Shown piece by piece: positions 13,553 through 36,700 of a stretch of 64,000 nucleotides of DNA. A model generated the notes under the pieces. That model did not search any database. It was not told where the DNA came from and saw only the letters and a list, made by a program, of their open reading frames with translations. The DNA comes from Oidiodendron maius Zn. Taxonomy: Eukaryota; Ascomycota; Leotiomycetes; Myxotrichaceae. The DNA lies in assembly GCA_000827325.1 (NCBI GenBank), contig KN832890.1:1-64000 (forward strand), in the 5' to 3' direction. Numbering within the stretch: position 1 is the first letter of the stretch; every line of letters begins with the position of its first letter. The position numbers and the translations under genes were made by a program.

Positions 13553-15072
13553 TTAAAGCTTAGCCTTAACAGGCTGGTCCCATAGACCCTGCAGCTGGTC
13601 AACTAGCGGATTCCTCTTATCAGTAATTCTCTCCTTTGTAGTCTTGAAAACAGCCGGCAAACCCGTCTCCTCGAAGGAAACACCATCACGAACCATATCC
13701 GCAACACCCTTACTCGATAGCAGAATATTGGGCATTCCGTGTCCGTTGAATGCGGCAATAATGTATTGGCCAGGCGCATCTGGCACCTCGCCTAGATGCG
13801 GCATGAAGTCTGAACTATAGCCCATAACTAAACCAAACTGTTAGCACCATCACTTGAAATAAGAAATGACTGAAAGGGTGCAGGTTAGAAAAGGGACTAC
13901 GAACTACCAGTCCAAACATGTTTGGTTTCCGCCTGGCTGTCCTCCCATCCTCGGAAGTGCTTCTGCATGTACCCGTCGAAATACCCCTTCGTAGCCTCCA
14001 CCAACTCGTCGTCCCGCACGTTCTCGAACCACGACTCCTTATCCTGCCAGAAGTTCTGCCTGGCGCCACCGACAATGATACTCCCATCCGCCCTCGCAAT
14101 CAGATAATCATATGCCTGCGGTCCAAATTTCAGGCTGTATGTGTTATTCAGGTGCGGCGAGTTCACGCCCTTGGGCGAAACGATGCGACTGCACACGCCG
14201 CGCACTGGGACGATTTTGTCTTGGTACTGAGGCAGGATTTGGGACGTGTAGCCGTTCGAGGCGTATACGATTTTAGAGGCGGAGACGATGCCTCGTGGGG
14301 TTGAGACTTGCCACCGACTGGCGCTGTCGCGAGTTTGGGAGACTTTAGTAACGGGGGTATTGGTTTGCAGATTTGTGCCGCGGGTGATGAGATAATTAAG
14401 GAGGTGGTGGACCATTTTGGCGGGCCAAAGATGGGCTGCAGTGAACGAAAAGCAGCACTGGGCGCCTTTGACTCCAGAAATCTATTATAAGTTAGAGAAC
14501 CTGTGCCAACAGAAAGAAATTAGAGCCAAGGATACCCTCTCAGCATCTTTCTTTGGTGTGAACGCAACATCTTTCATATCAACAACTCCAGCCTTCACCA
14601 ACTCCCTATATGCAGCCTCAGTGTCCTGCGCATTCTGAGCATCCAAATAGACATCAATAGTCCTCGTGAGATGAAAATCGCAATCGATTTTCTCCTTCTC
14701 CACCAGCTCCTTCACAGCCAGGACCTGCGATGACTCGAACGCTGCAAGCTTGGCCGCCATCTCCGGCCCGTACAACTTGGTGTACTTGGGCACATTGAAG
14801 TACGTATCTGGCTTCACGTGACCCCCATTCCGTCCAGTTGCTCCCGAGGCAGCCTTCCGGGCCTCAAGAATGACGATTGAGGGCGGGTTCGGATTGTCCT
14901 TGACTATGTGATATGCCGTTGCTGCGCCCGCGTACCCAGAGCCTATAACTAGGACGTCGCACGTCGAGGGCAGGTCTGGCGTCGTTCTGTGGTTGTCAAG
15001 CTTCTGGGGCTCTGCAAGCCAGAAGGAGGACACCGGATTTGAGACGGGAAAACGAGACGTTGGTGCAGCCAT
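13553..15072 (-). CDS. FAD-dependent oxidoreductase, DAO superfamily
   Basis: Three exons, 15072-14536, 14481-13908 and 13827-13553, join in frame to 461 aa. The introns are 54 and 80 bp. The dinucleotide-binding Rossmann motif VLVIGSGYAGAATAYHI lies at residues about 40-56 and is followed by ATGRNGGH, the typical FAD contact of DAO-type oxidases. The C-terminal half has the family pattern LIARADGSIIVGGARQ and FNGHGMPNILLSSKGVA. Such enzymes oxidise an amine or amino acid with release of H2O2; gamma-glutamylputrescine oxidase and sarcosine oxidase belong here, but the substrate is unknown. No signal peptide is seen. The shared palindrome lies 387 bp upstream of the ATG. The RIP block begins immediately after the stop. 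Confidence 0.85.
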
Positions 15073-15937
15073 GATGGTGACAGATGATTACCTTGAAGAG
15101 TACAGAGTCGTAAAACCGAATGTGTTCATGGTCTGGTAGGTGTATACGGTAATGAAAAGTACGGCAAGGTATGAGATGAAATGAGATGAGATGGATTGGG
15201 GTCAGCTTCTCTCCTGAGCGGTAGTGTCCGCAGAGGTTAGAAGTCGGCCATGCAGTTGTGCTCACACGTCTGCCGAGACGTAGCCACTTAGCATCGACTA
15301 TTATCACCAAGGAAACACGGAGAGGGATGATCCGTTTTCCGAATTTCCGGCCGTCTTGGATGTGGTACGCTTGTTAGTAGAGCGTTATACAATTAGCCGT
15401 GTTGATACATTCCTTGCCACTATCTACAGTAGAGTAGATTGTAGAATGGGGGCAAGCCACCGGCCCGGTGCAAGTTTGCATCTGCCGGCCTTCCCTTAAC
15501 TTCGCGACATCGGATCATCCTCAGCTCCTCCTTGTGCTTTCCATCCACGTGACTATGTGGTTGTGGTACCTTTGTCAGAGATACGGTGCACAGGGAAAGA
15601 TAGTCTGGTATTCAGCATAAAAGGTTGGTACATACAGTTAGGTTGTAAGCTGCCACAACACTCAAAAGTGGAGTTTTATACAGCGCAATACCATTACATA
15701 AGCATATCCTTGACAACATCGCAAACGGATAACACTGATAGCTACTACTTATGATAACGGGATATACGCAATAGCATTACAGACTTGTTAATATTTTCCT
15801 CGGCCATTTCATTCTCGTATTAACAGTATAAACGAGAAGCAATTCACGAAGCACCAATTTCGATCTAAGACTTGACTCATCCATTTTATTTCAAATCATT
15901 TTGTACTTTACATCTAGCATTTCAAATTTGCAAGAAT
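15073..15937. other. Intergenic region, promoter of the oxidoreductase
   Basis: No credible gene. It holds the minus-strand promoter of the oxidoreductase with the palindrome at 15,459-15,469, and the 3' region of the HAD gene. The short reading frame at 15,557-15,754 has no recognisable content. Confidence 0.6.
15459..15469 (-). promoter_or_regulatory. Shared palindromic operator candidate, site 1
   Basis: ACCGGCCCGGT on plus, ACCGGGCCGGT on minus, extended here to a 13-bp palindrome with flanking C/G. It contains CCG-N3-CGG, the type of triplet pair bound by Zn2Cys6 dimers. It lies 387 bp upstream of the oxidoreductase start. Confidence 0.65.
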
Positions 15938-16730
15938 TTATTTCCTGGGCGAATCAATAATACTCTGTGCCATTTCCTGAAACGTATCAGCCATAACATC
16001 CATCTTTCCGAATAAATCCACACACGGCTCCTTCTCCCATATCGAGCAATAAGCACCCTTAAATCTGCATCGCAGTTATTTCTCAGCTGACCCAAATCTC
16101 ACCCTCGAAATCAAATTAGAATGCATATACATACCCCGACCTCTTCGCCGCGGAAACATCCCACATATGCGCCGCCGCAAACCACGCCTCCTCGCCCTTA
16201 AAAGCCTCCAGCAGCGGCTGATACGATTCCGGCGCCGGCTTCCCCACGCCCAACGTATCGCACGTCATAAAGTTCTCCTCCGGCATATCAATGCCATTCT
16301 TACGAAAGTACCCCTGGACCCTGCCCGCATCGCCCGCCGTAAACGCCCAGCACGTGAACCCCGCTGCCCTCAGCATCTCGATGCACTCTTTCGCGCCCGG
16401 CCTGGCCTTGAGCTCCAGGAACTGCGCGAGAATGTACTCGAGGTCAGCGTCAGAGGCGAATATACGCGGCGTCTCGACGCCCGCCATCCACAGCATGCGG
16501 TAGAAGAGCGACGAGAAGACATCGTAGAAGCGCATGTACTTGCCCGAGATCGAGAGGTACGTGTACTCGCGCTCCGCGGCTTCGAACCACGTGTATCCCA
16601 GCAGTCGGGGCTTGATGCCTTCGGCGCGCAGTTGGGGGCCAAGACGGGTTTCGAGGGCCTCGAAGATGGCGTCGTAGGACATGACGGTGCCGACGACGTC
16701 GAAGACGACGTGCTTGCGAGGTGGCCACAT
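15938..16730 (-). CDS. HAD-superfamily protein, haloacid dehalogenase type II-like
   Basis: Two exons, 16730-16135 and 16064-15938, with a 70-bp GTATGT intron, give 240 aa. The frame is open further upstream but the first ATG is at 16,730. Motif I is VVFDVVGTVMSYD near residues 8-20, with the nucleophilic Asp in FDVVGT. Motif II is FTAGD, and the Lys and later acidic motifs are seen in GVGKPAPESY and HMWDVSAAKRSGF. The length fits 2-haloacid dehalogenases, but in fungi such proteins often have unknown substrates. It is transcribed in the same direction as the oxidoreductase and carries a palindrome 186 bp upstream of its ATG. Confidence 0.82.
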
Positions 16731-18581
16731 AGTAGGCAATATGGTATGGAAAGTGTCAAGAAGCGAGGAAAGTAATTTATTTAGAGGAGCATAGATAACA
16801 TTTGATTTCCTTGCTGGTTGAATTTTATTTATATAATTATATTGATTGGTATAGCAAGATAAGATGGTCGATAGTCATTTGGTGTGGTTTTCGCGTTTCT
16901 ACAAATGATAGTGACACCGGCCCGGTACTCGACTTGCGTAATCCCCACCTCAATGCAGCTATTATCTCTCTGATAACTTGAAAGGGAGAGAAATACACCT
17001 CTATTGTCTCACTAATGAATATTAGGGTATTTATAGTATATTAATGCAATATAGGTGCTTTTATTTAGTAGTATTCTCTTAAATTCGTACCATACACTTA
17101 CTTTTAACCCTTAGCTATTTCGATTTCTAAGACTTTTATAACCTAATAACTCTCTTATTATACTTGTCACTTTGAATAAAGCGCACTTTTATTAAAGAAT
17201 AATGGGGTTAATAAATCTAAATCATAGCGTCGAATAAGATATTATTACTAAAGAACCCTAGGTCATTAATTATTGAGTACGAGACCAGTAAGAAGATGTA
17301 ATAGTGTGAAAGCACTAGTATTTGGATCTGCCTTAGCAAATCAATGCTAGTTTTAGAAATGTTGCAAACTAATACTCGCTCCAAAGATTTACGGGGAGAG
17401 ACTGATTCTAACTACACCCGCGATCACTATCAAGCGCAATTTTCCCACCCAGCCTTTACCGAAACTATTGTGGGACGAGATTAACGCAACAGGTAGCTAG
17501 CTTGTCCAATAAAGTAGCGTCATTGCAAACTTTATTTCAAGGTCCATCCCGTTGCTGCAATCCAATCTGTAGTTGCGCATAGTACTCATGTGGTGCCTTC
17601 ATGTATATCAAGCGTCGTACAGCAAACTTGGGGGTAAACTTGGACGTACTATTTCTACGCAAAGATACCGAGTTTGTCCATGGTTGGCCTTGGTGATGGA
17701 AACAAATAGAATAAAACTATGCTGTCCACCGGTACTTCACAGAGGGCTGATTTTGCTATTTCAACACCCTCGAATCCAATTAGCTGAATGTAAGTTCTCT
17801 TGCATGCCCCTCGCGAATTCAGAACGACCTTACCGTGACCAACAGATGTTGAGTAGTAATGCCTTTAATCTGAGGGTGCATTAATATCTTATGCAACTTT
17901 CATATGCCGCTGCATTTACTTTTTGCCTCACGGCGACGCTGATAAGGCCGATAAGCTGCGGAGGGGTTTGCACTCAGAGCATAACTTAGTGCCATTCCCA
18001 TTCCGAAAAAAACTGAAATTTACCTGACAATTTCTACCAAACTATGGAAGAAGGGCCGTTCAAAGGTCTCGGTGATTCGTTCTCTCCCAAACGGACAACC
18101 TCCAGCAATTCGCCTCAGACAGCGCGATAGCTTCTTCAGTTCACTGGAGAATGGACTCTCACCTCCTCACTCGAGAATTTCCAATCTGCAGAGCAACGAG
18201 GTATCCACCTCATTGTGGCTCGACTTAGGAAGTGTCTTCTCAACAGTAAACAAATATATCTCTATTTCTAAAGTATTTTCCTTTAACTCGTACTAAATGA
18301 TGGGCAAATTACCAGCCATATGCCTTATTTATGAATATTACAGTAGTAAAATTCCACGTCCGTTTTGACGTTTGATATTTGACTATTATGCTACAACCAC
18401 CACAATGTTAGAACTTACTTCTAGTTCCGAAATACTAAATTGCATTACAGGCATCCACTGATCTCATCAGTTTTTTTGCACTTGATGCTTTACGCCAAAG
18501 TGCTAAGCCGCCAATGCTAATCGCGATAAGATCACGTGTCAAGTGGCGGGGAACGACGAAGTATCCGACTCAACGTTAGAG
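16731..18581. other. 1.85-kb intergenic region between HAD gene and regulator
   Basis: Contains the HAD promoter with palindrome site 2, then moderately AT-rich DNA without a supported gene, then the promoter of the Zn2Cys6 gene. Short frames at 17,573 and 18,072 have no recognisable features. No copy of the full palindrome lies directly upstream of the regulator; the site nearest to it points at the HAD gene. Confidence 0.6.
16916..16926 (-). promoter_or_regulatory. Shared palindromic operator candidate, site 2
   Basis: ACCGGCCCGGT on plus. On the minus strand the site continues as ACCGGGCCGGTGTCAC, sixteen bases identical to site 4. It lies 186 bp upstream of the HAD start. Confidence 0.7.
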
Positions 18582-21161
18582 ATGTCGACGCCGCAGAATC
18601 AGGGCCTCTGGAATCATCTCAATGAAGATATGGATGACGAGCAACCAATAAGGCGACGGAAGCAACGCAGAGTTGCAGAATCAGACCGGCAACGAGCCGT
18701 GCGGGCGTCAGTCCTCCAACTGCACTCCTCAACTCTTCCGGAGACTGACTTGGATAGATGTGATGGGTGCCGTCGACAAAAAGAAAAGTGCGAAGGGGGT
18801 GTTCCCTGTCACAGGTGTAAGCGCCTTTATCGCCAGTGCGAGTTCCATGGCAGTATTAGCAGTGTGGCTCGTGATTCAATCAGGTTTGCTCGAGGCTCAA
18901 GTTCGTTAAACGAAGGGGTGACTGATGCCCCATAGAACCCCCGCCGCCGACGACGTCATGGTTGCAGATATTCTGGAGCGGTCAAAGCTTATGGAGAAAC
19001 TCCTTCAGCATTATGTTCGAGGGATATCTCTTGACGCAGAGAGCCTCAGAAGCATGGCTGCGGGTCTTCCCAATGGCGACTCGGCTAACCCGTCTGATAT
19101 GGAAGATATCTCTTATACTGAGATAAAGGCCAATGAAGATTCATTAAATGACACGGAAGATCTAACATTGGACGAGAATTTCACTGTCAAGCCTTTAGCT
19201 CATAATACTACTCGTTGGTCCACTTTTGTCGTGTGCTGCTCACGTGCTAAAGCAAACACACAGATTATTCTGGAGAGTTCTCATACTGGAACTTTTCGAT
19301 GCGCATTAAACAATGGATAGATGATTGGGCCCCGCAAATGAATACAGAGGTATGGATTGTCACATCTATGCCATTATGTTGCTGATTTATTAGGACCCCC
19401 GAGAAGCGTCCAAAGTTAAGGAATTTTATCGGGCCGAACACCTCCAGTCCTCATGTCACGAACTAGTGACATCGTTGTCTTGCCTACCCCCTCGACATGT
19501 TGCCGACTTTCTCGTTTCGATTTTCTTTAAATATGCCGAGACCAACTACTTTTATGTTGATAGGAGTTGGCTTGAAGCGGCTTTGAATATGGCTTACGGC
19601 AATCCATCCTTTCTCACAGGTAAAGATACAGGAACCATTTGTTCTATACTGATGATCTTCGCAATTGGTACTCAATACGCGTATCTAGATTCTGGAGATC
19701 CGAATGGAGTAGCTCAGGCAAAGGCAAAGGCAAAGGCTCTAGAACGATCTGGATTTTCAGAGGATGACGTGGGAAGAATGTTCTTTCAGCAAGCCTCAAA
19801 GCTCATACCAGATGTCATTACAGTTGCGTCGCTCGAAAGTGTGCAAGCATGCCTGCTTATTGGACTGTACACACTGCCACTTGATACATCTGGGCTCTCA
19901 TACATATACCTTAACCTTGCTATGAAACTTGGAATACAGAATGGAATGCATCGAAAGTATGTCGGTGATGGATTTAACGCAAAAACAATCGAAACGAGAA
20001 ATAGAGTCTGGTGGACTGCATTCACTGTCGAACGTCGAGTGTGTATTTTTCACGGGCGGCCAATTTCGATACTATCTTCTGACGTGGATGCCAATGAGCC
20101 TGTCGATTATCCAGAGATGAAATCATCTACAGGGCCATCTTTGATCACAAATATATTGGCTTCAATCAAACTTGCCAGATTCCTCGAGGATTTGGCCAAC
20201 GAAGTGTACGTATAAGTCTTACAAGATATTTGACGTACTGACTAATCGACACAGATCTGTGCTCAAACGATGTCAAAAGCATGAACAGTCGGAAAGTTTA
20301 AGCAGACTCACCAGGACCAAGAACAATTTACTGAACTTTTGGTCATCTTTGCCGAAAGAAATCTTCTGCAAGGATCTGAATCCGCACGGTCAACTATTTC
20401 GTCCAAACATGCATCTCATGTTGGAGTATTGCTTGATCAGAATGTATGTCGGCCGTCCATTCTTGTTCAGTCAGCATTCTAGTACAAGCCCAAGTTCCGT
20501 TGTCGACGAACAAGGCCGTCCATCTACTCGCGTTTCTACCAGAGCTGTCCTCATGGATGACTGCGTTCAAGCAGCCATAGAAGTCGTAGAGATCCTTCGA
20601 GGTCTTCGGGACGGTGGTGGCCTGGCCAGAGCATCCTACACAGAGTTTAGCTCTTGTCGAGCTGCCCTTCTTGTCATTATTGCACAGTCGCTTCACAAAA
20701 AGACCGAAAGCTTAAAGGAGGCCCTTCAAGAGGGCATGAGCATGATAAGGATGATGTCAGCAGGTGGTGACTCTGCCCGCTCTGAAGTTTCGTTGATTGA
20801 TGCATTTGAACGAGCCATCTCGCGAATGGATTCCTTTGGCGAAACCTCGCAGAGTAACACGCTTGGATCTGGAGTGTCGGGGTATGATCGATTCAAGAAT
20901 TGGGAACAGCTTTGGAAAAGTGATCCCATTATCCCAAATCGGGGGCCGGACAAGACTCCAATTATACCTACAGTAGATTCGTCCTTCAACCATACGGAAA
21001 TTACTGTCATCAATCCCAATCCTGCGGCATCTTTTTTTGGTCTTGACAACTTCCCATATTCGTGCCCGCAGGTTTTGGAAGAGTTTTCGGCAATTCCGAC
21101 ATTTGAGTACGACTTTGATAGTATACAAGGTACTCAATGGGGAAACATGGATCGAATGTAA
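18582..21161 (+). CDS. Zn2Cys6 fungal transcription factor
   Basis: Six exons: 18582-18706, 18758-18883, 18936-19213, 19264-19349, 19394-20205 and 20255-21161, giving 777 aa. The frame is open from 18,543 but with GTG; the first ATG is 18,582. The zinc cluster CDGCRRQKEKCEGGVPCHRC, completed by a sixth Cys, starts near residue 43 with C-X2-C-X6-C-X5-C-X2-C-X6-C spacing and is preceded by a basic arm. The first intron (51 bp, GTCAGT donor, CTGAC branch site) is a multiple of three without stops; splicing yields the classical RACDGC context, retention adds 17 residues just before the first Cys. A fungal-specific TF domain follows (ADFLVSIFFKYAETNYF, NRVWWTAFTVER). It is probably the nuclear regulator of the flanking enzymes. 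Confidence 0.85.
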
Positions 21162-21829
21162 AGTTGCATCTGAAAATGCTTCGAGTTTAACGTCTCCATT
21201 ATGTCTTAACATTCTATTCTTTCACAGCCGAAATCCATGAACCTCTGAATGGCAAGCTATTATATGCAATCCAATACGCCACTCAACTGAACCCTCTGCT
21301 TTCACCTCCTATTGCTGGAAAGCGATCTCTAGAGCATTGACCACGATTAGAATTATAACGACAGTTAGATAGTTGGTCACTACCATGAAGGTGAGAGTTG
21401 TCTCAGTGAAACCTCGCTGCTGTCTGTTCGGTCTCTGCAGCTATTTCAACCAGCGTTACCGATTTGGGAGACACCATCCCGAGTGGCTTTGGGAAGGGGT
21501 GCCAGTACTGATCAAGACCAAGGTTTCCCAGAACCTGTCGTCGAGGCACAGCACATTAGTTCAAGCCGGCCCATACATGAATCCCGACAATACAGCCTCC
21601 AACCACCAACGATTGTTTGGATTTATAATGTTTAAGGCGTGGGGGGACTATCCAGTATCTGAAATCAGAACATAGCTAGTAAGCGGCGGTAACACCCATA
21701 TTAGCTGGGCTTGATTTCACACATCTTAACGCTGTCTGGTCATTGCCACCGCATAGCGATATGTAGCTGGTTGTCCCAGGCATGAATCGGTACGGATTAA
21801 TGATCAATACTCCGAGGAAGTAGGCCTAG
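21162..21829. other. Intergenic region downstream of the regulator
   Basis: No supported gene. The 100-codon frame at 21,373-21,675 shows no domain or motif and is not called. Confidence 0.5.
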
Positions 21830-21962
21830 AGAGACGATAAGCTTGGCCGAAAATAGCTGCATGGCTTCGTCGTGTTTGCCCTTACCCTCGAGCAAGCTAG
21901 CGAGGTTGCTTATGCTCCTGAGTGTATCCGGGTGTTCCTTGCCTAGGACCTTCTGCCTTAGA
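21830..21962 (-). pseudogene. Fragment of a kinesin-light-chain-type TPR repeat protein
   Basis: On the minus strand an open stretch reads VLGKEHPDTLRSISNLASLL followed by KGKHDEAMQLF, the hallmark of the 42-residue TPR_10/TPR_12 repeats found in fungal NLR and HET proteins. Only about one repeat is left. It lies just downstream of the broken HET gene on the same strand, so it could be the tail of the same former locus or a separate scrap. Confidence 0.7.
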
Positions 21963-21969
21963 GCTAGCG

Positions 21970-22880
21970 TCTATTGATTTATTTTCTTTATCAAATTTAA
22001 GATCGTAGAGCAGATCCAAGTCTCTGTATGGGAGGTCCGCGAACGGAGTGAGCTGGATGCCTCCCTCGTATGCCATCCACGACCATGATAGCACTTTAAT
22101 TGGCACTCTGGCGGCTTCGTAGTTAAGCGGACCCTCCTTGTGCTGGTCAGATCGCTGCCAAAGAAGATTTCTGTGAAGGCAGAAACCAAAGCTGCCGTAT
22201 CTTTCTTCGCACGAGAGAGCTTTTGCCGTGCGAGCCGCTAGACCAGATAACGCAAAACGCAACAGCTCTGTTGGTTGGGTTCGAGAGGCCACGCTTTGAG
22301 TAATCCTCTATGAGGGACTGAAGGAAGTTTATAGTGACAGTCGCATCCAGAGCCGTGGAGTAGCCTTGGAAATTCTGGATCGAGTTTGATGCACTTCTTC
22401 GTGCCGTTTGAGCTAGGTCCAAGATATCTCAGTTAGAACACAACACTTTGGAACGTATTTTTGCAGCTCTCATGTCGTCCATCGAGTTAGATCCTCGCAG
22501 CATACCCCTCTGCCACGTTCCCAATATGTTTTGGCCAGCGCTAAAATGGACGGTTCGGCAGGACAGGAACCTTTCTTGCATGACCCACGCTCGGGTGTTG
22601 AGCTGAGCCGTCTCCACGTGGTTATCGAAATCCTCCACGTTGGTGCACTCATAGATTTGCCGATCTGAGCCGTCTTGAGTGTAGATATACTCACTGTTCA
22701 CGATACCCTCAAGGGATCCCGATTTTATATTGACAGCCGATGATGCAGCGGGGGGTGAGTTAAGCCGAAGCATAGACGTCTTCCATGCGCTTGGCTTCTT
22801 CTGCCTAGTCACCTCCCTCCCCCTGGACGATACACAGCGAGTCAATCTAAATATACTGCAAGCCAAAATGTCGAGTCACC
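21970..22880 (-). pseudogene. Broken HET-domain gene
   Basis: Minus-strand segments in different frames match HET-domain proteins in the expected order. Upstream are the IDSLCIVQG and KRMEDVYASA motifs, then LNTRAWVMQERFLS and SAGQ, then a C-terminal region with SWSWMAYEGGIQ. The reading is interrupted by several stops and at least two frame changes, so it cannot encode the full protein. Some stops lie where the family has Trp, consistent with G-to-A RIP-type mutation. HET proteins act in heterokaryon incompatibility. The relic sits between the regulator and the dehydrogenase of an otherwise metabolic cluster. Confidence 0.8.
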
Positions 22881-23084
22881 TGAACAGCGTCTTGAAAAGT
22901 CCTTGGTAAATCGCTGATATTAAATCCCTTTCTCGTCTGTTGATATTCTGCTGGGTGGTGCAAAATTGCTATTTTTCTTCATCCGTAAGCTTGCCGCAAC
23001 AATGGCAGATAGCAGCATAATTCTTTGCTTCCAGTTGTTGATCAGGAACGAGTTTTAGCTTATTTGAATCAGAATCACCTACGT

Positions 23085-23585
23085 AGAGAAGTCTGGGGTG
23101 TGGCATGCATCAGGCCGTCGCGCAGCAGAGACGAGAAGTCGGATGAGGGGAAGTTGCCGATGGCGGGGCGGTTGACAAGGGAGGAGATCATGGCGGATGA
23201 TAATAGCCTTCAGAGAGGGTGCGTTGTAGCTGGCAGGGATGGAGGCTATTAGGTGTAGACGTCAAGGTATTCGTTTCCGTCGACATCAACGATGCTGGGG
23301 GTGTTAGATGGGTTTGGGTCGTGGTGGTTTGGAGGGATTGTTATTAAGGATAGAGAATGAGGTGGGTGGAGGGGTAATTGATGCTTGAAGATGTAACTGA
23401 TGAATGAGATCGGACTTACAAATTGCCATTACTCTTTGTGTAGTCGACGACAAATTGCACGGCACAGCCATCGAAGATGGCATCGAGCTGCTTGGTGCAG
23501 GCTTTGGACTTGGGTCCTGGCACCTCGATGGTCGGCTTGTTGACGAGAGTTCCTGGCAAACTTCGAATGTACTGGGCTCAGGTGT
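23085..23585 (-). pseudogene. N-terminal fragment of 4-aminobutyrate aminotransferase
   Basis: Two exon-like pieces on the minus strand are recognisable. The first carries RSLPGTLVNKPTIEVPGP, then CAVQFVVDYTKSNGN. After a putative intron with a GTAAGT donor the second carries IVDVDGNEYLDVY, then SLVNRPAIGNFPSS. This is the beginning of the class III aminotransferase fold of fungal GABA transaminase. About 120 residues remain; the PLP lysine domain is absent, the second piece contains stops and a frame change, and the sequence then gives way to the HET relic. The family converts GABA plus 2-oxoglutarate to succinic semialdehyde, the substrate of the intact neighbouring ALDH. Confidence 0.78.
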
Positions 23586-23704
23586 CTAGCTGCTCAGTAT
23601 TTAGGGGTATTAATAGAAGGTATCGTAATATTCGAAAGTGTTGAATCCAGTGCAGAAGAATATGAGAACTCCGAATTCAAGGTACAAATCTCTGTTGTGG
23701 ACCA

Positions 23705-23855
23705 TAGTGACACCGTTTTTCCTCTGGCAGTTGGCCTTTTACTTTCTTCGCCAATAAGACATGCCACCAGAATACAAGCGAAAACCACACCGATCATGCC
23801 GAGGGAGAGGCCATAGTAGACGGGATCGACCAGCGGGAACACTTCAAAGAAGCTA
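23705..23855 (-). pseudogene. Fragment of an MFS transporter (polyamine/drug type)
   Basis: The minus strand reads FFEVFPLVDPVYYGLSLG followed by a hydrophobic segment MIGVVFACILVACLIG. This resembles the middle of the fungal DHA1 polyamine/multidrug transporters (FEAFPLVYxxxYGxNLGExGLxF). About 45 residues survive, without start or flanking helices. Assignment rests on the pattern only. Confidence 0.5.
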
Positions 23856-24268
23856 GAAGCGGGCAGTTTAAGTCATAGCAGCACTAAGGCTGATGGTTCT
23901 GGTTCTTGGATCCGCCGCGCTTAATTTATTATTTATAACAGATCTTTGTATACTTTCCTATAACCTGTCTGCAAGGCTGTTTACTGTACCGGGCCGGTTC
24001 GTGATCCCTCAGCGGATTTGCCAACGCCACCATGCGGCAACGGCAGGTTGACTGCCGGGATTAACATCCACCGTCCTAGAGAACAATGCCAGGATCATGA
24101 TCGAGACAAGACTGGCGATTTGATAAGATGTCGTGAACTGTCACTTTCTATGGTGACATATAGGCATACATCTGCTGGCCATTTTGGAATTGAGATTGAC
24201 AACCTATGCTTGCTGCTAATAAGAGATAGTTGGCTGTTTCATGTGATCTGCCCCTCATCAACGCCGCC
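23856..24268. other. Intergenic promoter region of the aldehyde dehydrogenase
   Basis: No gene. It contains palindrome site 3 at 23,988-23,998, and then the 5' region of the ALDH gene. Confidence 0.55.
23988..23998 (+). promoter_or_regulatory. Shared palindromic operator candidate, site 3
   Basis: ACCGGGCCGGT on the plus strand, 271 bp upstream of the proposed ALDH ATG and about 400 bp from the divergent GABA-aminotransferase relic. It shares a TACCGGGCCGGT context with site 2 but lacks the GTCAC extension. Confidence 0.65.
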
Positions 24269-25996
24269 ATGCAGCCTCATCGCCTTACTATGGTACGTGC
24301 CCCTTGATATTCTGGAGCTGAGTCACGAGACTCTTGATAGTCTCAATGCTTTTGTTGATTTCTGACTGGCAGATTGCAGCTCGCTGATCCGTCGCTCTTG
24401 CGTTCGGCATGCTATGTTAACGGAGAATGGGTTGGTGCCGCCTCGGGCAAGACATTTGCAATTGCAGGTTCGTACTCAGTCCTCTTTTCAAATACCTGGG
24501 CGGTGCTTCTGAGTATTCAACTGGGCATTTTAGCTGGGAATTTTAACTAAAAACAGTAAGCTAACTCTACCAGACCCCGCTACCCTTGAACAAATCGCAG
24601 TGAATCCAGAATTCAATACTAAAGACACCCAAAATGCTATCACCGCCGCCTCCACTGCTCTCCGTACCTATCGCAAGACGACCCCCCGCGAGCGAGCCCG
24701 CTGGCTCCGAATATGGCATGGCCTCATGATGGCCAACATCGACGATCTTGCCACTATCATAACTGCAGAGAATGGTAAGCCAACGGCAGATGCAAGGACC
24801 GAAGTTGCATACGCGGCAGGATTCCTCGAGTGGTTCGCAGAGGAAGCCCCACGCATATATGGCGACACCATCGTGCCCAGCAATCCAAACCACAGACTCA
24901 TGACGCTGAAAGAGCCCGTCGGCGTCTGCGCTCTCATTGCGCCATGGAACTTCCCAGCTGCTATGATAACTCGAAAAGCAGGCCCCGCGCTCGCAGCGGG
25001 CTGTACCGTCGTGGTAAAGGCACCCGCCGAGGCGCCCCTCACAGCTCTCGCGCTCGCAGAACTAGCCCATAGGGCCGGAATCCCCAAGGGCGTAGTAAAT
25101 GTCATCACTGCCCTCGACAACACCGTCGAAGTCGGCAAACTCCTCACCACCAGCCCCAGCATCAGGAAAGTCTCCTTCACGGGCTCCACCGCCGTCGGAC
25201 GCCTCCTCATGGCGCAGTCCTCGTCGACGCTGAAGAAGCTCTCATTCGAGCTCGGCGGAAACGCACCATTCATCGTCTTCGATGACGCAGACCTGGACGT
25301 CGCGCTCGCGGGCCTGCTCGCCTGCAAGTTCCGCATCTCAGGCCAGACGTGCGTGTGCGCGAACCGCATCTTCGTGCAGCGCGTCATCTACGATGCTTTC
25401 GTCGACAAGGTCGTCGGTGCGGTGCGGCAGTTCAGGATTGGGAACGGCTTTGAGGAGGACGTGACACATGGGCCGCTGATCCATGAGCGCGCGGTGAGGA
25501 AGGTGGATGAGCATGTGAGAGATGCGGTGAGCAAAGGTGCGAAATGCGTTTTTGGGGGGAAGATACTGGATGGTTTGGGTGCGAACTTTTATGAGACGAC
25601 AGTGTTGACGGGGATGGATATGAGTATGAAACTTTGTGAGGAGGAGACATTTGGCCCTGTGGCCCCTTTTTTTGCGTTCGATACTGAGGAGGAGGTTATT
25701 GAGATGGCGAATGCGTCTGAGGTGGGCTTGGCGGGGTATTTCTTCTCCAAGGACTCAAGTCGATGCTGGAGAGTTGCAGAAGCGTTGGACGTTGGTATGG
25801 TTGGCGTTAATACTGGTGAGCAAGACGAACCGTCGTCGTCGTACTTTTAGATTATTGCTAATATCGAATAGGGGCTCTGAGTGATCCTGCGGCGCCGTTT
25901 GGAGGCGTGAAGCAGTCAGGCTTTGGGAGAGAGGGAAGTAAATACGGTATTGACGAGTTTTTGATTACAAAGATGGTGATGACAGGAATTGCATAA
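24269..25996 (+). CDS. NAD(P)-dependent aldehyde dehydrogenase, succinate-semialdehyde dehydrogenase type
   Basis: Four exons, 24269-24292, 24380-24467, 24574-25815 and 25872-25996, give 492 aa. The reading frame of exon 3 extends from a GTG at 24,600, but the conserved N-terminus ([20 protein letters not shown]) lies in exon 2, so the tiny first exon MQPHRLTM supplies the start; that start is the least certain part. The catalytic Glu is in FELGGNAPF near residue 262 and the catalytic Cys in GQTCVCANR near residue 297. The ends [19 protein letters not shown] and IDEF are typical of SSADH (GabD). The reaction is semialdehyde to acid in the GABA shunt. A GABA-aminotransferase remnant lies immediately upstream in divergent orientation. 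Confidence 0.88.
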
Positions 25997-26512
25997 ATGA
26001 TTTGATGATTTTACATCAAAAATAGATTAGGAGCTTTGGAGTTTGTTTAAACAAAATTTAAAGACTGATAGGCTAGGCCTGCTCAGAAAGACGCTTCTGA
26101 AGGTAAATTTAGAGGAAGCCTGAATGTATTGCGTACGAACGCTCATCATCGTGGTAAGTACGTGAATGTATTTTGGGGTATAGTTGATGATTGTATTTAT
26201 GGATAACGATATGTTCACTTCTTACAATTTTGAAGAACCGAAAACATACAGGAAAATCCGGAATGATAAACATCCAGCAGACCTAGCATTGACTTTAACT
26301 TTTGATGCCTGTAATTCTAGAAGTCCAGTGTAATAAAAGCTTGTTTGAGCTGCACCCGGATGTATAATAACTCAGAGCTTTGCTTTTGAGCTATTTCCAA
26401 GTCTATTATTTTGATCTCCAACGCCAACGCCATTTAGATGATGCAGCCGCCATTACTTCAGCTCCAAATCCATCTAGCCCACTTGATTCTAAAGTCCAGC
26501 CCACGTCTCAAA
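25997..26512. other. Convergent intergenic region
   Basis: Lies between the 3' ends of the ALDH and the tartrate dehydrogenase-like gene. No gene or repeat is seen. Confidence 0.6.
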
Positions 26513-27704
26513 TCAAGAGCCCAAAGCCTTACAGAGAGCCTCAGTAACCTGCATCGTATTCAACTTGCCCCCCATATCCACTGTCAACAACCCAATCTCG
26601 CAAACACTCTCGATCGCCTTCATAATCCCCGCCGCCGCCCTCTCCTCTCCTACCCAGGACATCATCTCTGCCGCTGCACATACCGCTCCAATCGGGTTCG
26701 CAACCCCCTTCCCCATAATATCAAACGCACTTCCATGCACCGGCTCGAACATCGACGGCCACCCCCTCGTCGGATCCAGATTTGAGGACGCCGCAATCCC
26801 AATGCTGCCCGCCAGCGCAGCCGCCAGATCGCTCAAGATACCAATGTGCAGATTCGTGCCCACGACCGTGTCGATACTGTGCGGTTTCTGCACCATGCGG
26901 ATCGTCATGGCATCGACGAGTTCCTTGTCCCAGTGCACGTCCGGGAACTCCGCCGCAACCTCGGTCGCGACCTCGTCCCAGAGCACGCGGCCGTGCCGCA
27001 GTGCATTACTCTTCGACACCACCGTCAGCTGCTTCCGCGGGCGCTTCTGGGCGGCTGCGAAGGCGAAACGCATGATGCGTTCGACGCCGTGGCGCGAGTA
27101 GATGCTGGTTTCGGTTGCGATCTCCCAGGTCTGGCCGACATGTGAGCGCCCGCCATGGCCGGCGTACTCGCCTTCGCTGTTTTCACGCACGAGGAGCCAG
27201 TCTAGGGCGCTGGGGTGGACCGAGGCGAGGCGAGGGGTGGTGAGGCAGCGGATGGGGCGGGTGTTGGCGTAGAGCTGCAGTGGAGAACGCATTTTTAGGA
27301 GGAGGCCCCAGAGGGAGAGGTGGTCGGGGACGTCTGAGGGAGGTTAGAGTGGTGGAGGAAAGGGGGGAAGGCGAGATGGGAGATGGGACATCAGAAATGG
27401 GAAATGGGGAACGTAAAAGAGAGGTGGTTCATGGATTTAGTGATACATGGGGAGGAGATTGACGTACCTGGTGCGCCAACGGCATCGAAGGGGATGGCAT
27501 CGAATGGCTTCAGCGTTGTAAGGAAATCAGAGGGGAGGTATGAGCCTGTCTCCTTGTAGAAGACCGTTCCCCAAGGAAAATTGGTGATATTCAACTCGAA
27601 GTTGTTCTTCGCGACCGTCTTCAGCACCTCAATGGCTGCGGCGACGACTTCAATGCCAATACCATCGCCGGGGATGAAGCAATTCGATAGGTCTTAGTAG
27701 ACAT
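26513..27704 (-). CDS. Tartrate/isopropylmalate dehydrogenase-family protein with frameshift near the start
   Basis: Exon 1 27704-27468 and exon 2 27333-26513, intron 134 bp with GTACGT donor. The pattern IPGDGIG, then FPWGTVFYKETGSYLP, VPDHLSLWGLLLKMR, RENSEGEYAGHGGRSH and FEPVHGSAFDIMGKGVANP is that of NAD-dependent beta-decarboxylating tartrate dehydrogenases, about 350 residues long. The expected start MSTKTYRIA at 27,704 is in one frame, whereas IPGDGIG onward is in another. The family sequence ASIPGDG would need one more base in the Ser codon near 27,676. The rest of the frame is intact. This is either a young null allele or an assembly error. Palindrome site 4 is 316 bp upstream. Confidence 0.78.
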
Positions 27705-28663
27705 GGTTATAACAGAATAGATATGATAAAGGAGCTGCTACAAAGCGACAAGATATGAAAAGGAGCTATAGAGGTCGATTGAAAGAACGATAACGTGACG
27801 AAATGAAAGGGAACCCGTAACTCTCACTCTTGGTCTCTGCGCAAGCAGCGCATTCCTTCTAATATAGCTCATGAGGCGCGCAAACAGGTACCGCCATCCG
27901 ACCTAACCAGCAGAGCCAGCAACTAGATGACGGCATTCTGGTGAGGCCATCGTGAATCTCGACAATAGCCGACCAGTCGTCGGGGATTCTGGGGATAGAG
28001 GTGGAGTCAGTTGATGTGCACCGGGCCGGTGTCACGTTGATAGCTTCGAATATTGAACTGCTCCTGAACTTCCTGCTAAACCACTCCTAACTCGGCCCCA
28101 ACTTGCCCCTCACTGAAACCCCTCTTGTCCGGGGATATTTCGGTTTTACGTCAAATGCCCAGAGCATTATCCCGGCAGGGCGACCGTTGAAGTTCGTGTG
28201 CGCGAGTCGTGGACCAACGCCTTCTGGAGGGAGGGTCTGCACGAATTTATGCATCGATGTCTGCCCAATGTCGAACTGCGTCGAAGGTTGACAGGACGAC
28301 ACCCGGAGAGCACCGGTCCGCTATCTCCGGGTCGTATCCAAAAACCTACGTAGGACGTTACTGTCGGGAGCCAGGGGATAGAAGCGGACCCCAGAATTCT
28401 GGGACGATACAGTAAGTTACTCCAGATAAGCTGCCCGTGTGAAGCTACTGAGCTTGGACGGGGTAAATAGATAAGGCTCAGGTGAAGTGTAGCTCCTTGC
28501 CTTCGAGCTGGTAATCGAGGGTTTTTATATACGGTTGAGGCATCTTCAGCTTCATCCCCTTCTCTCTCATCAGTCACCGCCAACTGCCAACTCCTTCTCC
28601 ACCTCCAGTTCTACTCGAGAGCCACACGTACACCTTGAGGCTTTTCGCTTGCGTCGCTCAATA
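27705..28663. other. Divergent promoter region between dehydrogenase and transporter
   Basis: 959 bp without a supported gene, containing palindrome site 4. It serves a minus-strand gene on the left and a plus-strand gene on the right. The 138-codon minus frame at 28,167-28,583 has no recognisable content. Confidence 0.65.
28020..28030 (+). promoter_or_regulatory. Shared palindromic operator candidate, site 4
   Basis: ACCGGGCCGGT on plus, a 13-bp palindrome with its flanks, continuing GTCAC as site 2 does. It lies 634 bp upstream of the transporter ATG and 316 bp upstream of the dehydrogenase ATG. Confidence 0.7.
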
Positions 28664-30388
28664 ATGGCAGACATCGAGCAGGGCCATGTGATGGCGGTGA
28701 ACGCCGCGGACATCAAAAGCGTTGTCCAAATAAGTCCAGTGGATTCCTTTGCTGGCAAGGTCGAGCTGACGGAGGAAGAGAGAGAGCTCGCCCTCGCTCT
28801 CCAGAATTACGTCCCTGGCAGCGAAGCCGAGAAGAAACTTGTCCGCAAAGTTGATCTCATCATGATTCCTACCGTCTGGTGCATGTATATTCTTGCTGTT
28901 CTCGATCGCTCCAATATTGTAAGCCTCACTCGATATCGATTCTCAAAAATATAATTTGTTGACTAGAATTCAAGGGAAACGCCAGAATTGCAGGAATGGC
29001 TACTGAGCTTGAGCTCAATGATAACCGTAAGTCCCTTTCCCGTGATTTATTTCCTGGCGTATTCGAAATGCTTATACGAAATCAGGATACGCGCTTGCCT
29101 TGTCCATCTTCTTTATTGGCTACCTCATTTGCGAGACGCCTTCTAACCTGCTCCTTACTCGTGCTCGCCCTTCATGGTACTTGTCTAGTATTATGGTCGT
29201 CTGGGGCGCCCTGTGTGCGTGCATGGCAGCTTTGAAGACCTACCATGGCTTATTGGCTCTGCGTTTCTTCCTCGGCTGCATTGAAGCTGGTTTCTTCCCT
29301 GGTGTCCTGTTCATCATGTCCTGCTGGTACAAGAAGGAAGAAATAGGTAAGCTCACATTTCCAGATCCGAAGTATCACCCGCTGACCCTTTTTAAGGCAA
29401 ACGTTTCTCCATCTTCTACACTGCTTCCGTCTTCGCCGGCTCTCTGGGTGGCATCATGGCCGGCGCCATCATCGGTCACCTAAACGGCACCCACGGCATT
29501 GCTGGCTGGCGTTGGTTGTTCATCATCGAGGGCATCATCACCATCGGCTTTGCGATCTTGGCCAAATTCATCCTCCTCGATTTCCCCGGCAACTCAACCC
29601 GCCTAAGCCTAGAGGAGCGCCAGCTCGCCGTCGTCCGCATTCTGCACGACAAGCAAACCACCAGCGCGCGCCACGGCATCAGGCTCACGTTCTGGCAGGC
29701 GCTGAAGGCCTCCCTCGCCGACTCCCGCACCTACATTATGACGCTGCTCGCGATTCTCAATCTCGGCTCCACCACCATCGTGTACTTCATCCCGACCATC
29801 GTTAAGGCCGTGGGCTACACCAGCACCACCGCGCAGTGGATGACAGTCCCCATCTACATGACCGCCGCGGCAATGCTGATCATCCTCTCCTACACCGCCG
29901 ACCGCACCCACGACCGCCGCTGGCACATCACCGGCTGCTTTGTACTCTCCTTCGTCTGCAGCATCGTGTGCATAGCTTCCTCCTCCCCCCAAGCCCGCTA
30001 TGTCATGCTTTGCTTTTTCATCGGCGGCCTGTATGTCGCGCTGCCGCTCATATTGACCTGGATCACGGAGATTATCTCGCTCCCGGCAGAGAAGCGCGCC
30101 GCGTCCATGGCGATTGCGAATAGTGTTGGTAACCTGGCTTCGGTGTATGGCAGCCGTCTCTGGCCTTCTTCAACGGGCCCGAGATATGTGATGGGCTTTA
30201 CGGTTGTGTCAGTTTTCCTGGGACTAGGTGCTGTGCTTGCCGCTACTATTCCCGTCATTGTGAGATATTTGCCCGCGGAGGGTCAGACCAAAGCGGAGCA
30301 GGAGATTTTGAGAAGAGAGGAGGTGATTGTTAATACTCAGCCGGAGTTCAAAAATGTTACGGCTATGGTTCAGGTACATGGAGAATAG
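28664..30388 (+). CDS. MFS transporter, Dal5/anion:cation symporter family
   Basis: Four exons, 28664-28918, 28975-29026, 29086-29346 and 29397-30388, join in frame to 519 aa. An acidic N-terminal arm is followed by VDLIMIPTVWCMYILAVLDR in TM1, then the loop NARIAGMATELELND, FFIGYLICETPSNLLL, LRFFLGCIEAGFFPGVLFIM and WRWLFIIEGIITI. These are the signatures of the fungal allantoate/nicotinate/tartrate-type (ACS, Dal5, Tna1) family in the plasma membrane. It probably imports an organic anion that feeds the neighbouring enzymes. It diverges from the tartrate dehydrogenase-like gene and ends convergent with the large NLR gene. Confidence 0.88.
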
Positions 30389-30751: not shown

Positions 30752-33700
30752 TCAAGCTCCCTTTCTTCTTTGATACAGCTCCAAAATGCCTCCGTTGTCC
30801 ATAGCAGCTGCAATATCTAGAGCTGTCCTGCCCTCATTATCCTCCTGCAAAGGATCACAGCCCAAGTCAACAAATCTGCTAAAAAGTAGTGCATTATAAT
30901 CCACCTCCCCTCTTGAATTTCTTGGTAATAACCCAATGTTAGTTTTCCTCTCTGCTAGAACATGCAAAATCGTGGCACCATCATTCTTTACAGCGCGGAC
31001 ATCCGCCCCGTTTGTAATAAAGAACGGGATGGTAGCCAAATGGCTCATCTCGTTCCAACGTGGGTCGGGCCGGTATCCTGATGCAACGTGTGCGAGCAGG
31101 GCCGTCTCACCGAGCCAATTGCGCGCGTTGATATCGCCGCCTAGAGAGAGGAATTTTTGTATGAGAGGTAGGCTTTGCTTCGTCTCGCCTACATAAGTGC
31201 AGCGATAGAGGTGATGGAGGGCTGTATCGCCGTTAGGGTCCGGCTCCAGGAGGTCAGCGTTGCCATCTTCGATGAGCCGTAAACAAGTTGATATATTACG
31301 GCTCTTGAGGGCACGATGTAAAGGCGAGAAGCCTGCGCTATCTTTTTGGTGGATTAATGCTCTCACACCAGAAATAGAAAAAAAGCGTGCTGCATGTTTG
31401 TCCCATCGCCCCAAGAGATAGAAAATGAGGTGTTTGCCCTCATTATCAACTGCTAAGTAGTCAATCGATGAGCCGTAACGCTCAGAGTCAGCAAGAAGCA
31501 AAAATGCTGGAGTATATTCCGAATTAAGGCGTTCCAGCTCTTTCTGAGGTACATATCCAATAGCTTCGGAACCTACGACAGAAGCGCAAGCTGCCATGAA
31601 AACAGTTCGGCCCTTTTGATCCCGGACATTAAAATCTAGATTGGGTCGTTCCGTAAAGATGCGCAGTAAAGACGATCTTGCGTGTTGGAAGAGAAAGTGG
31701 AGGAGAGGCTCGTCGTCATTAATAAGAACGTCAACTTTTGCCCCATGGTCAAGGAACAATCTCATCATTTCCGTCGACGTGGACGCACTCCATGGTTGAT
31801 GCACTGGCGGAAATGCGGCGACTGCCAGTGGATACCGCTTTTGCAGATTCGGGTGTCCACCGCGGAGGTTCGAATTCGCTGAAGTATCCGGAACATTGCA
31901 GTCCGCTCCATTCTTAAGGTAGATTTTAAGCGTTTCGACATCTCCGGACTCAACTGCTGACATGAGAGCCCCTTTGGCCCCAGCATTAACATCTGCCCCG
32001 TGCTTGAGCAGGATCTTGATAATGTCACTATCATGTCTGGCCATGTTTAAAGGAGTCAATCCTGCTAGATTCGGTTTGTTTGGATCAGCGCCCAACCGCA
32101 AGAGTATCTCACAACATTGAGGTTTGAAGAAGCCTCTTGCTACGGCGGTACAGTGTTGCTCACAGGTGCTTGCGAGCTCCAGTGGAGTTTGGCCCTTTTC
32201 ATTGACCACATCAACCATGCTACCTGGTATTGGGAGAGTTAGTATAACAACAGCTTTGCGATGAGCCACTTCAGGCCGAAAACCAAAGGGGCGCGCAAGG
32301 CTGCGACCTACCACTGCTAACTAAAAACTTTATAGCATCTACCTGCCACCAGTAATTCCCACTAGCAAGCACATGTAGTGCGGTCGGCCCCGGACTGATC
32401 CTGCCACTTGGTGTCTCTTTTACCTGCTGATGGGCATTTACGTCAACTTGCCCTTCTACTACCAGTAGTCTCACCATATCCATGTTCCACACACGTCGAT
32501 CGCAAGCAACTTGCAGAACCGGACGGACCTTGTAATATCCCGTAGGCACTTCCTCAGCAATAGTTTTAGTGAACGTAGGATCATCTAGGAGCTTTGCTGA
32601 TAAGATGATTTTACGCATAAGTTCTGTCAAGCCAAATCTTGCAATCTTGATAATTGCGTTCCCATCATCAGAAGATCGATCTGGCCGGGTAAAATCCATA
32701 CCTAGTGCAATTACAGCGTCCATTGTGGTTTCGTCCATGTGTTCGATAAATCTGCTAGGGCAATCCATAGATCTATATCTCTGGCGCCTTTCAACATTTG
32801 CACTCGCAATGCCGCCAGCTCTCTGAGACGACCGTTCTGCTGCTTCACGTCGAACGGTGGCCACTAAGTCTCTATTTTGCTGCAATAAATCTGTCTGCAT
32901 AGGCCCCTCAATATCTGCCCCGGCTTTTACTAGCATTTTGGCAATAACGCCAATGCGCACAGTTTCATGTTGCACACTCTCTTTAGTACAATGTTGTTGA
33001 CTCTGATCTTTGGCAACTGGCACTGGTCTGAAAGGGTCTCCAATATTAAGGTCTGTGGAAGCTTTCTGTCCACTGTTGCTCATTGACTGCCATATTGCGT
33101 TTTCCTTGATATATTCTGTACAGGCTATCCATGGCTTAATCGAGTCTTTATCTTTGCAATTTACATCTGCACCAGCCCGAACCAAGAGGCTGACCGACTC
33201 TGGCCAGCTTGAGCGGCATGCATCATGAAGCGCTGTCCTTCCATCTATGTCAGCAGCATTGATATCGATGTTCTGATCAAGCTCTATCCCGAAGTGCAAT
33301 AACATTGCAATGATGTTACTTTGTCGTCCGCGGGCTGCACAGTGAAGAGGTGTTCGAAGATTAAAAGATTTTGCATTTAGTATAGCACCGAGTCGAATCA
33401 AATTGAATGTATCAGATTCAGAAGCTGCAGATGCATAGTGTAATGGCGTGTAACCACCTCTGTCTTGTGTGTTTACATCATACTGAGGATCTAGGCGGAC
33501 AAGCATTGAGATAAGCGTCTGTCGCGTATGAGAAGATCTAGAGCCGTAGCCCTCAGAATAGACTGAAGGCATTATATGTGCTGCTGTTTGTTGCCTGGAG
33601 TTCGTTGCCTTGGTCGGAACACCCATTTCAACTAACCATGTAACTAGATTAATATCCTCTGCGGACCCTTCGAAACGCTCCGCGACCTCATGCAAAAGTG

Positions 33701-36700
33701 TATTGCCATCATTATCGGTCCAATTTAGATCTGCTCCTTTGGTTACAAGCGTCTTGACCAAATCTAATGGATCTTTTGTTTGACATGCCAAATGAAGAGC
33801 TGTCTTTCCTTTCAGGATTGTTCGCGCAGAAACCGAAGCCTCCTTGTCCTTGGGCTGCTGCAAAAGCACATCGGCTAGCGGCCGATTTTTGGCTACAGCA
33901 TAAAGCAATGCTGTCATGCCATCGGGGTCACGAATTTCCAGATCAGCATCAGCCACGATAATTGATTGAACCAGTGAAAGCGGAGAACTTCCTTCAGGAA
34001 ACCCGTTTGGGCAATGAAAAATATGCAAACAAGTTTGGCCCAGGGAATTCTGGAGATTCACATCTGCTCCAAGATGTATCAGTATATTTAAGATGGATTC
34101 TTTCTTGATGTGATGATCTTTGCAGGCGATGTGAAGTGCCGTGTTGCCATGGAAGTCCCGGGCATTGATATCTGCTCCATGATCGACAAGCAACTGTATG
34201 ATATCACATGGACAATGAATGTTTTTCACAGCGCTGGTCAAAATATGTCAGCTGTAAGTTAATTTTTCCCCAAGAGTAGTTATAGAGAGCATCTAGAAAT
34301 CTACTGCAGTTTAGAAGCGTGCAAGGTTCTTACGTGGCTCAGTTCTTCACATTGCTTTGCAACTCAACTAATCATGAGGAGTAGAACAAGACAAACCCCA
34401 GTAAGAGAAATGAGCTTTCAACTTACCAGTGGAGGGGGGTTGCCCCGTCAGAAGAGCGTGCCTGTCTGGTAAGAGCTTTGTGGGTAAGTAGCTGGCTAGC
34501 GTGTTTTGTGTTACACATTGTCTTGCACGCCCGATGAAGTAAAGTTTCTCCTTTAGAATCCTTAGCGCATAGATTAGCACCTGCAGAGAGTAACATGTCC
34601 AGCATGTTATGTTTGTCTGATATTATGAATTGGTTGTCTATAGTTAGCAAGAGCGGAGTATTTCCCTGGCTGTCGACCGCTTCCAGGTCAGCTCCAGCTG
34701 ACAAAAGCATTTTCATAATATTTCTGGCTGCGGATTCAGTTGTTGAATTCAGGCTTATGGTGGCTAAGCTGTGAAGCGGAGTCCTTCCATCGGGTTTTAC
34801 GTGATAGGCGTGGTAGGCAAGCCCGGGGACATTAGCCCAATGACGAGAGACTTTCTGTACGCTGGCGCCCTTTTCCAGCAACACGCGGACACACTTAGGC
34901 TCTAAAGATGCTGCTGCGAGCATTAGAACAGACTCGCCTTCATAGGATGCATCTGGAGAGACTTTCGAGTTTTCCAAAAGAGCAGTCATGAGTTGAAAAT
35001 GCCCAGCACGCGCAGACCAGCAGAGTGCTTGCTCTAGGTCTTCTAACTTGGCGAAGGGAATCATTTCAAGAACTGTCTCGACGTGCCCAGTTTGGCTGGC
35101 ATACATGAGCGGATGGTGTCCACGACTTGATGGAGCGTTTCCACAAAATCTACCCACCTCTCTGGGCTTTCTTGTCGTCGGCGAAACACCTGTAAAGAGG
35201 ATTAGCATATTTTCCCGTTTATTCTAGTTACTGTGGAGATAAGTTAACGGCAATAGAATGTAACGTTTGACATACCAGCAGCGAGAAGCAATTTTACAAC
35301 CTCTACATGATTTCTTGAAGCTGCAACATGAAGTGGCTTTAACCCATCAAACCCATCAACGTCTGGTTTCGCGCCAGCTTTCAGTAACAAGTCTACCACT
35401 GCGCTATGGCCACCCTTTGACGCCCAAAAGAGTGGAGTGTTCTCACTGCTATCCAACGCATTGATGTCCATACCTCTTTGGATTAAATATTTTGTCCAAA
35501 GCACCAGCCCATAGCCTGCAGCAACATGCAGAGGAGTAGAGTTCGTGAAGGAAACTGCAGAGTCATTGGCTGCGGACATGAGTGCAAGCCACGCCCTGAA
35601 GTGCGAACTCTGGGGTTCACAAAATTCCTGCAGGATATTGAAGAAGTGCTGGTCCTCAATCCCATAATTCTTTGCATGGTATGGCCACTCCCTTGCGGCA
35701 TATTCCACAAGTGGATATCGAAGAAAGACGGCCCGAAAGTCAAAATTGATATCCCTCCCTCTAAGGTATCTGGAGGCATAAACTTCAGTTTTCTTCGGGT
35801 CATCGTTCGGGTATGCACCAAAAGCATCAGATCGAAGACTAGATAGGCAGGTAAGAGCAATCTCACGATGCGCCGTTGTAGATTCAATGATGGGAAACTG
35901 AGGGGTTGCGGGCGTTGAGCGATCTATTCGGCGGCGGTCGAGAAGAAACTCTGTGAAAGAATGATGGAGAATTTGTACTACCTCATCTTCCATAATCTCT
36001 AGTAACGGCCCGCACGCAGCCCTAACTATTTCTTTGCTGTCCCTGTCGGTCGCTGCGCGGTGATTCGTCTCCAGGACCTTCGCTATTTCAATTAGGCGCA
36101 TAGGTCGTGCTGAATGAGTAACTAGCTGTAAGATCAGAATCTGAATGTCTTGCTCAACTTTGGTAAGTGCCGCATATTCGAAGAGCATCCTGTTATACAT
36201 CTCATCTAGACCAACGGGCAAGTTGACAACCATTTCGCGGATTGAATGCTCCTCATTCTCATTCCCTTTGATCGATTGCTCAATCTGATCGAGCATGAGA
36301 CGGGCATATAGGAAAAGGCCCTCTGATCGCTCGCAAATTGTGTCCTTCAGGAATTCCTGAATTTTGGGATCAACACCATCCCGACCATAGTCCGCTACGC
36401 GCTGGCGGACGAAAAGTGATATGTCTCGTTTTACAAGTTTCACTTCCAGGCTGACATGGATGACCTGAGGATTCTTCAGCAATCGTTGGAGGTATTGCTT
36501 TGGTCGGCTGGTTATCAAGATCTTAATCCGGTCAGGCCTGAAAGACCCAAGAGCATTCACTCGAAGTAGAAAGTCTTCATCAATGGTCATCTCATCCAGC
36601 GCATCAATCACACAGTAAGCTTTGTCAATCCAGCGCAGACCAGCCAAGAGATACTCCCATAATTGGGTCGTGGATACGCTTTCCAACTCATTCGCCTGGA

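Follow-up and report, generated by a model that had tools for sequence, protein, structure and literature searches.

GABA regulons in yeast (Uga3/Dal81) and Aspergillus (AmdR) have a Zn2Cys6 factor in control of GABA transaminase and succinate-semialdehyde dehydrogenase (SSADH) genes; the element used by Uga3 is an everted CCG-N4-CGG, and Put3 of yeast binds CGG-N10-CCG. In the prn cluster of Aspergillus nidulans, the Zn2Cys6 regulator PrnA is associated with CCGG-N-CCGG inverted repeats located in intergenic, partly bidirectional promoters (PMC5983819), and PMC12941744 lists this repeat as well. The DGD1/DGD2 pair of Saccharomyces likewise has the gene of a class III aminotransferase next to that of the Zn2Cys6 protein that induces it; the pair differs in that the enzyme is a dialkylglycine decarboxylase, and no shared promoter site is mentioned in the portion of the source available (PMC10169451).

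The locus described here lies in a 64-kb stretch of DNA (the window) from a genome whose Zn2Cys6 and HET genes suggest a filamentous ascomycete. It adds one more case to a known type of system; the kind of site it carries is rarely reported in the literature covered. As in prn, a Zn2Cys6 regulator sits within a catabolic cluster and CCGG-N-CCGG elements occupy intergenic promoters (nine sites here, counted over this cluster and a paralogous one on contig C3 of the same genome), and as in the GABA regulons, GABA transaminase and SSADH-like genes stand alongside the Zn2Cys6 factor. The second PrnA class of element, CCGG-N6/7-CCGG, is likewise found in two transporter promoters, those of an MFS gene in the window (28303) and of a permease on C3 (C3:2762765, one of two such direct repeats in 68 kb of that contig). 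The differences are equally specific, since the triplets are separated by N3 rather than the N4 of Uga3, all nine sites have a G/C centre and seven of them keep both outer A/T compared with the PrnA element, and, unlike in prn, neither proline dehydrogenase gene (Pro_dh matches on C12 and C1) lies within these clusters. Put3 provides the best solved-structure match to the zinc cluster of the window regulator, TF1, and this match is weak (E = 0.08). On the distribution of the sites, we consider it quite probable that the clusters' own Zn2Cys6 regulators, TF1 in the window and TF2 on C3, bind at ACCGG-S-CCGGT.

An exact search of both strands found four copies of ACCGGGCCGGT in the window, every one intergenic. 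The relaxed form CCGGNCCGG (CCGG-N-CCGG) occurs at these four places and no others, and a one-mismatch search with ACCGGGCCGGT added only the same places on the opposite strand; dinucleotide-shuffled versions of the window held a mean of 0.01 copies and a maximum of 1 (100 shuffles). A sequence-only reading had located the copies at 15,459, 16,916, 23,988 and 28,020 with no others, all intergenic and 186-634 bp before a start codon, with 16 bases common to sites 2 and 4; the four places and the shared bases were confirmed, and the gaps were recomputed as 185, 270, 386 and 633 bp, with start codons read from the sequence without annotation. Site 1 (15459-15469, minus strand) lies 386 bp before the ATG of the DAO gene, and site 2 (16916-16926, minus strand) 185 bp before that of the HAD gene. 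Site 3 (23988-23998, plus strand) lies 270 bp before the inferred ALDH ATG, a choice that implies a short first exon, and has a GABA transaminase 5' remnant on its other flank. Site 4 (28020-28030, plus strand) occupies a divergent promoter, 633 bp from the MFS gene and 315 bp from a tartrate-dehydrogenase-like gene that the earlier reading had overlooked as a target; a CCGG-N6-CCGG direct repeat (28303-28316, plus strand), the sole CCGG-N6/7-CCGG of the window, lies between this site and the MFS start.

Two further proposals of that reading held in part. The G-centred strand was said to point toward the downstream gene, which applies to the four window sites and fails at C3:2791610 upstream of DAO2; the strand of the centre base is also uninformative at divergent promoters and was rejected as a direction signal. 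The CCG-N3-CGG triplets, described as suited to a Zn2Cys6 dimer, are present in the sites but show no clear enrichment alone (8 in the window against 4.75 expected, with at least 8 in 13 of 100 shuffles), and the everted CCG-N3-CGG by itself was likewise discarded as a signal. Several other triplet spacings in the cluster regions, direct CGG-N0/N2-CGG and everted N9 among them, exceeded expectation as much or more in a spacing scan. The special feature is the whole CCGG-N-CCGG with outer A/T, not CCG-N3-CGG.

The genes of the window cluster begin on the minus strand with the DAO gene, an FAD-dependent oxidoreductase (PF01266) of several exons (13556-15072, end approximate), followed by a HAD hydrolase that resembles type II haloacid dehalogenase while scoring under the cut-off of that model (16119-16730, minus strand). 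The Zn2Cys6 regulator that the sequence-only reading had placed among these genes is TF1 (18582-21161, plus strand), which matches Zn_clus (PF00172) and Fungal_trans (PF04082) and lies 1655 bp from its nearest site. A GABA transaminase gene survives as a 5' remnant (23093-23533, minus strand) next to site 3, and the remaining GABA transaminase protein has no match anywhere in the window; RIP was rejected as the origin of the fragments, since the indices are not RIP-like by the usual cut-offs. Beyond site 3 lie the ALDH gene (24269-25996, plus strand, ends read from the sequence), closest to SSADH, a gene of the isocitrate/isopropylmalate dehydrogenase family closest to tartrate dehydrogenase (26513-27704, minus strand), and the MFS transporter (28664-30388, plus strand). 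The enzyme assignments in the two clusters fall below the model cut-offs, at 626 bits against 646 for the ALDH (TIGR01780), 282 bits with one exon scored against a whole-protein 567 for GABA transaminase (TIGR00699), and 366 bits on a partial gene against 470 for the tartrate-dehydrogenase-like gene.

The search was extended to the genome of this one fungus (45.9 Mb in 58 contigs, labelled C1, C2, C3 and so on), where ACCGGGCCGGT occurs four times in the window, three times within 30.5 kb on C3 (2765618, 2783853 and 2796078) and five times scattered. The scattered copies lie inside open frames with Pfam matches to PGAP1, FAD_binding_3, Glyco_hydro_30C and ATP_bind_1 in four cases; the fifth, C6:417869, has no gene found around it and is the sole exact 11-mer outside the clusters and open frames. 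This whole-genome scan had been proposed along with the sequence-only reading, which held that many unrelated copies would speak against a regulon; the scan found 12 exact copies in all, of which 7 fall in two clusters with paralogous regulators and, outside these, all but one fall in open frames, which supports the candidate regulon. Of the 21 places at which the pattern ACCGGNCCGGT is present, 12 are centred on G/C; the other 9 are centred on A/T, and both clusters lack this A/T-centred form. The shorter ACCGGSCCGG has 80 distinct places, 71 of them outside the two clusters, and at least three within 40 kb are found in two regions only, with 5 in that of C3 and 4 in the window cluster. When 80 sites were placed uniformly in 20,000 runs, the maximum reached at least 5 once and at least 4 in 76 runs; uniform placement disregards base composition, and its odds serve as guides. 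A reversed control pattern gave 16 genome matches against 12 for the motif, and backward CCGGNCCGG gave 617 against 342 forward; the reversed pattern being commoner, the word is clustered and not over-represented genome-wide.

The C3 region (2.7609-2.8000 Mb) contains an amino acid permease, DAO1, a HAD gene, TF2, an FAD monooxygenase, an MFS gene (MFS1), a second Zn2Cys6 gene, a HET gene, MFS2 (MFS-like, below the Pfam cut-off), an ankyrin gene, DAO2 (found by tblastn, below the Pfam cut-off), a GABA transaminase, a DUF3425 gene and an ALDH. By its protein similarities this stretch is a cluster paralogous to that of the window, with DAO, HAD, regulator, GABA transaminase (a remnant only in the window) and ALDH genes common to both. 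The window HAD has exactly one other genome match at E 0.001, which lies in the C3 cluster (52% identity), and the ALDH proteins are 46% identical. The first exon of the window DAO is closest to C3 DAO1 (43%), whose own first exon has no solved-structure relative among those searched; for the second exon a copy on C22 equals C3 DAO1 (both 44%), and for the third a copy at C3:2.93 Mb scores slightly above it. A comparison with syntenic clusters had also been proposed, and the C3 cluster, although from the same genome, served as a stand-in in which the sites are present; finding this paralogous cluster strengthens the regulon call.

Within 68 kb of C3, CCGGNCCGG occurs six times, five of them intergenic, at 669 bp from the inferred ATG of the permease, 240 bp from MFS2, 114 bp from DAO2, 301 bp from GABA transaminase and, as one site common to two genes, 397 bp from DAO1 and 314 bp from HAD. 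Two of these five deviate from ACCGGSCCGGT by one outer base. The two clusters jointly therefore hold nine intergenic sites that precede 11 genes, 5 of the window and 6 of C3, by 114-669 bp; two elements stand outside this set, namely C3:2763937, a CCGGNCCGG within the DAO1 open frame, and C3:2765368, a copy with one core mismatch (ACCGGCACGGT) in the DAO1 promoter alongside an exact site. In the same 68 kb, CCGGNCCGG is not near the C3 ALDH, the FAD monooxygenase/MFS1 pair or TF2, and the shared CGG-type-triplet site thus marks the promoters of many, not all, cluster genes.

Given that the clusters are paralogous, some sharing by descent is to be expected, and the sites might be functionless relics of a duplicated DNA segment, or simply chance occurrences. 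We regard either origin as very improbable. Identity between the shared proteins has fallen to about 43-57% and the intergenic DNA does not align above chance, yet the site is still exact: a blastn comparison of the clusters (word 11, complete list) returned coding similarity, and its best intergenic piece had E of about 0.2. Among the pieces at chance level are exact 14-15-base words covering the site, one of 15459-15473 with C3:2796078-2796092 and one of 28017-28030 with that C3 site again; they match promoters of different genes to each other. Sites also precede genes that the clusters do not share, these being the MFS and tartrate-dehydrogenase-like genes of the window and the permease, MFS2 and DAO2 genes of C3, and the DAO and HAD genes are divergent with a common site on C3, whereas in the window they run in tandem and each has its own. 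Moreover, uniform placement would put 4 of the 12 ACCGGGCCGGT copies into 12.6 kb with a probability of about 4e-8. A motif-blind count of words common to the 18-kb and 40-kb cluster regions, which excluded words with fewer than three letter kinds, was headed at k = 9 and 10 by parts of the motif and at k = 11 by the complete 11-mer; at k = 8 the motif stood below other words.

Another Zn2Cys6 factor, for example the PrnA of this fungus or a Uga3/AmdR-type GABA regulator, might serve both clusters in trans, with TF1 and TF2 binding elsewhere. CCGG-N-CCGG is the published PrnA inverted repeat (PMC5983819). The CCGG-N6/7-CCGG repeats noted above and the GABA transaminase and SSADH-like genes inside the clusters point the same way, but the control loci make such a factor unlikely. 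The proline dehydrogenase genes lack CCGGNCCGG in the stretches examined, 5 kb on C12 and within 60 kb on C1, on which ground a PrnA/proline regulon was rejected. With regard to a GABA regulon, only the GABA transaminase gene of the C3 cluster has a site, the window remnant adjoins site 3, and CCGGNCCGG is absent at the GABA transaminase loci on C2 (10 kb) and C26 (20 kb). It is absent as well from 10 kb each at the DAO loci on C22 and at C3:2.93 Mb, two of eight further DAO loci. Among the loci examined, the site goes with the two that carry TF1 and TF2 and not with the enzyme families in general. A different regulator of the C3 region could be the binder, the candidates there being the second Zn2Cys6 gene and the DUF3425 gene, with the HET and ankyrin genes also present. 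That TF1 and TF2 bind the site as repressors is a reading to which we give very little credence: the present sequence evidence is the same for activation and repression, but pathway-specific Zn2Cys6 proteins in fungal catabolic clusters are mostly activators, as is PrnA.

The relationships among the regulators speak partly for and partly against the preferred assignment of the site to TF1 and TF2. Across the middle domain TF1 is 57% identical to TF2, its closest paralogue, and TF3 on C1 comes next (49%); TF2 matches Fungal_trans by Pfam, its zinc cluster being seen in the translation and by tblastn, and the zinc clusters of all three have the run KEKCEGGVPC in common. The TF3 locus (C1:62.7-67.6 kb; 62687-67636) is a third related locus, with a different HAD and a partial GABA transaminase match, and CCGGNCCGG is absent from 40 kb around it, which fits the assignment poorly given the common zinc-cluster run. 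Other points against it are the cluster genes with no site near them, the site-free DAO copies that match the later exons as well as C3 DAO1 does or slightly better, and the k = 8 ranking. From the observed site distribution we infer, as the best explanation, binding, a sign of control and an inducer. A Zn2Cys6 dimer would sit on CCGG-S-CCGG with one zinc cluster per CCGG half, would bind in the presence of an inducing metabolite, and would then activate the genes for uptake (permease, MFS) and breakdown. The enzyme set (FAD oxidase, GABA transaminase, SSADH-like ALDH and, with a site in the window, the tartrate-dehydrogenase-like enzyme) suggests breakdown of a GABA-type amine, the substrate being a guess; more speculatively, the FAD oxidase might release an omega-amino acid or an amine, whose carbon GABA transaminase and the succinate-semialdehyde-type dehydrogenase might feed into the TCA cycle.

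A more tentative extension, which we hold to be possible though somewhat less likely than its opposite, is that the two diverged paralogous activators read an identical 11-bp site, so that the two clusters form one cross-wired regulon. The same degree of caution applies to the corollary that the cis-site stayed fixed while the regulators (57%, middle domain), the enzymes, the gene order and the added targets drifted. Such a two-cluster regulon would be the surprising part, and the CCGG-N-CCGG recognition mode, encountered only for PrnA in the literature searched, would extend to another pathway. The clusters offer a natural pair in which the site is kept and the rest has diverged, together with a set of regulator, site and targets, open to direct test, for a fungal catabolic pathway of which no description was found in the literature searched, and they are a possible source of a small-molecule-responsive promoter for fungal biosensors. 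Titles and abstract openings among the matches listed contained no fungal regulatory use of the 11-mer or its core. The benzoxazolinone FDB1/FDB2 clusters were considered as relatives and set aside: the available text of PMC4726666 has none of the terms aminobutyr, palindrom, haloacid or succinate and its two uses of "motif" refer to a protein, and that of PMC10512309 lacks motif, aminobutyr, succinate and transaminase, with FAD occurring 7 times and dehalogenase (a chlorzoxazone-induced gene) 3 times.

Lastly, some neighbouring genes may recur at both loci. Open frames at 21897-22866 (minus strand) of the window resemble a HET-gene remnant by eye, one of them having been tested with no Pfam hit, and a HET gene is present in the C3 cluster (L011:2021-2848). 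Beside the window cluster, two long open frames at 30752-34241 (minus strand) are ankyrin-repeat-like by eye, and the C3 cluster likewise has an ankyrin gene (L011:6070-9435).
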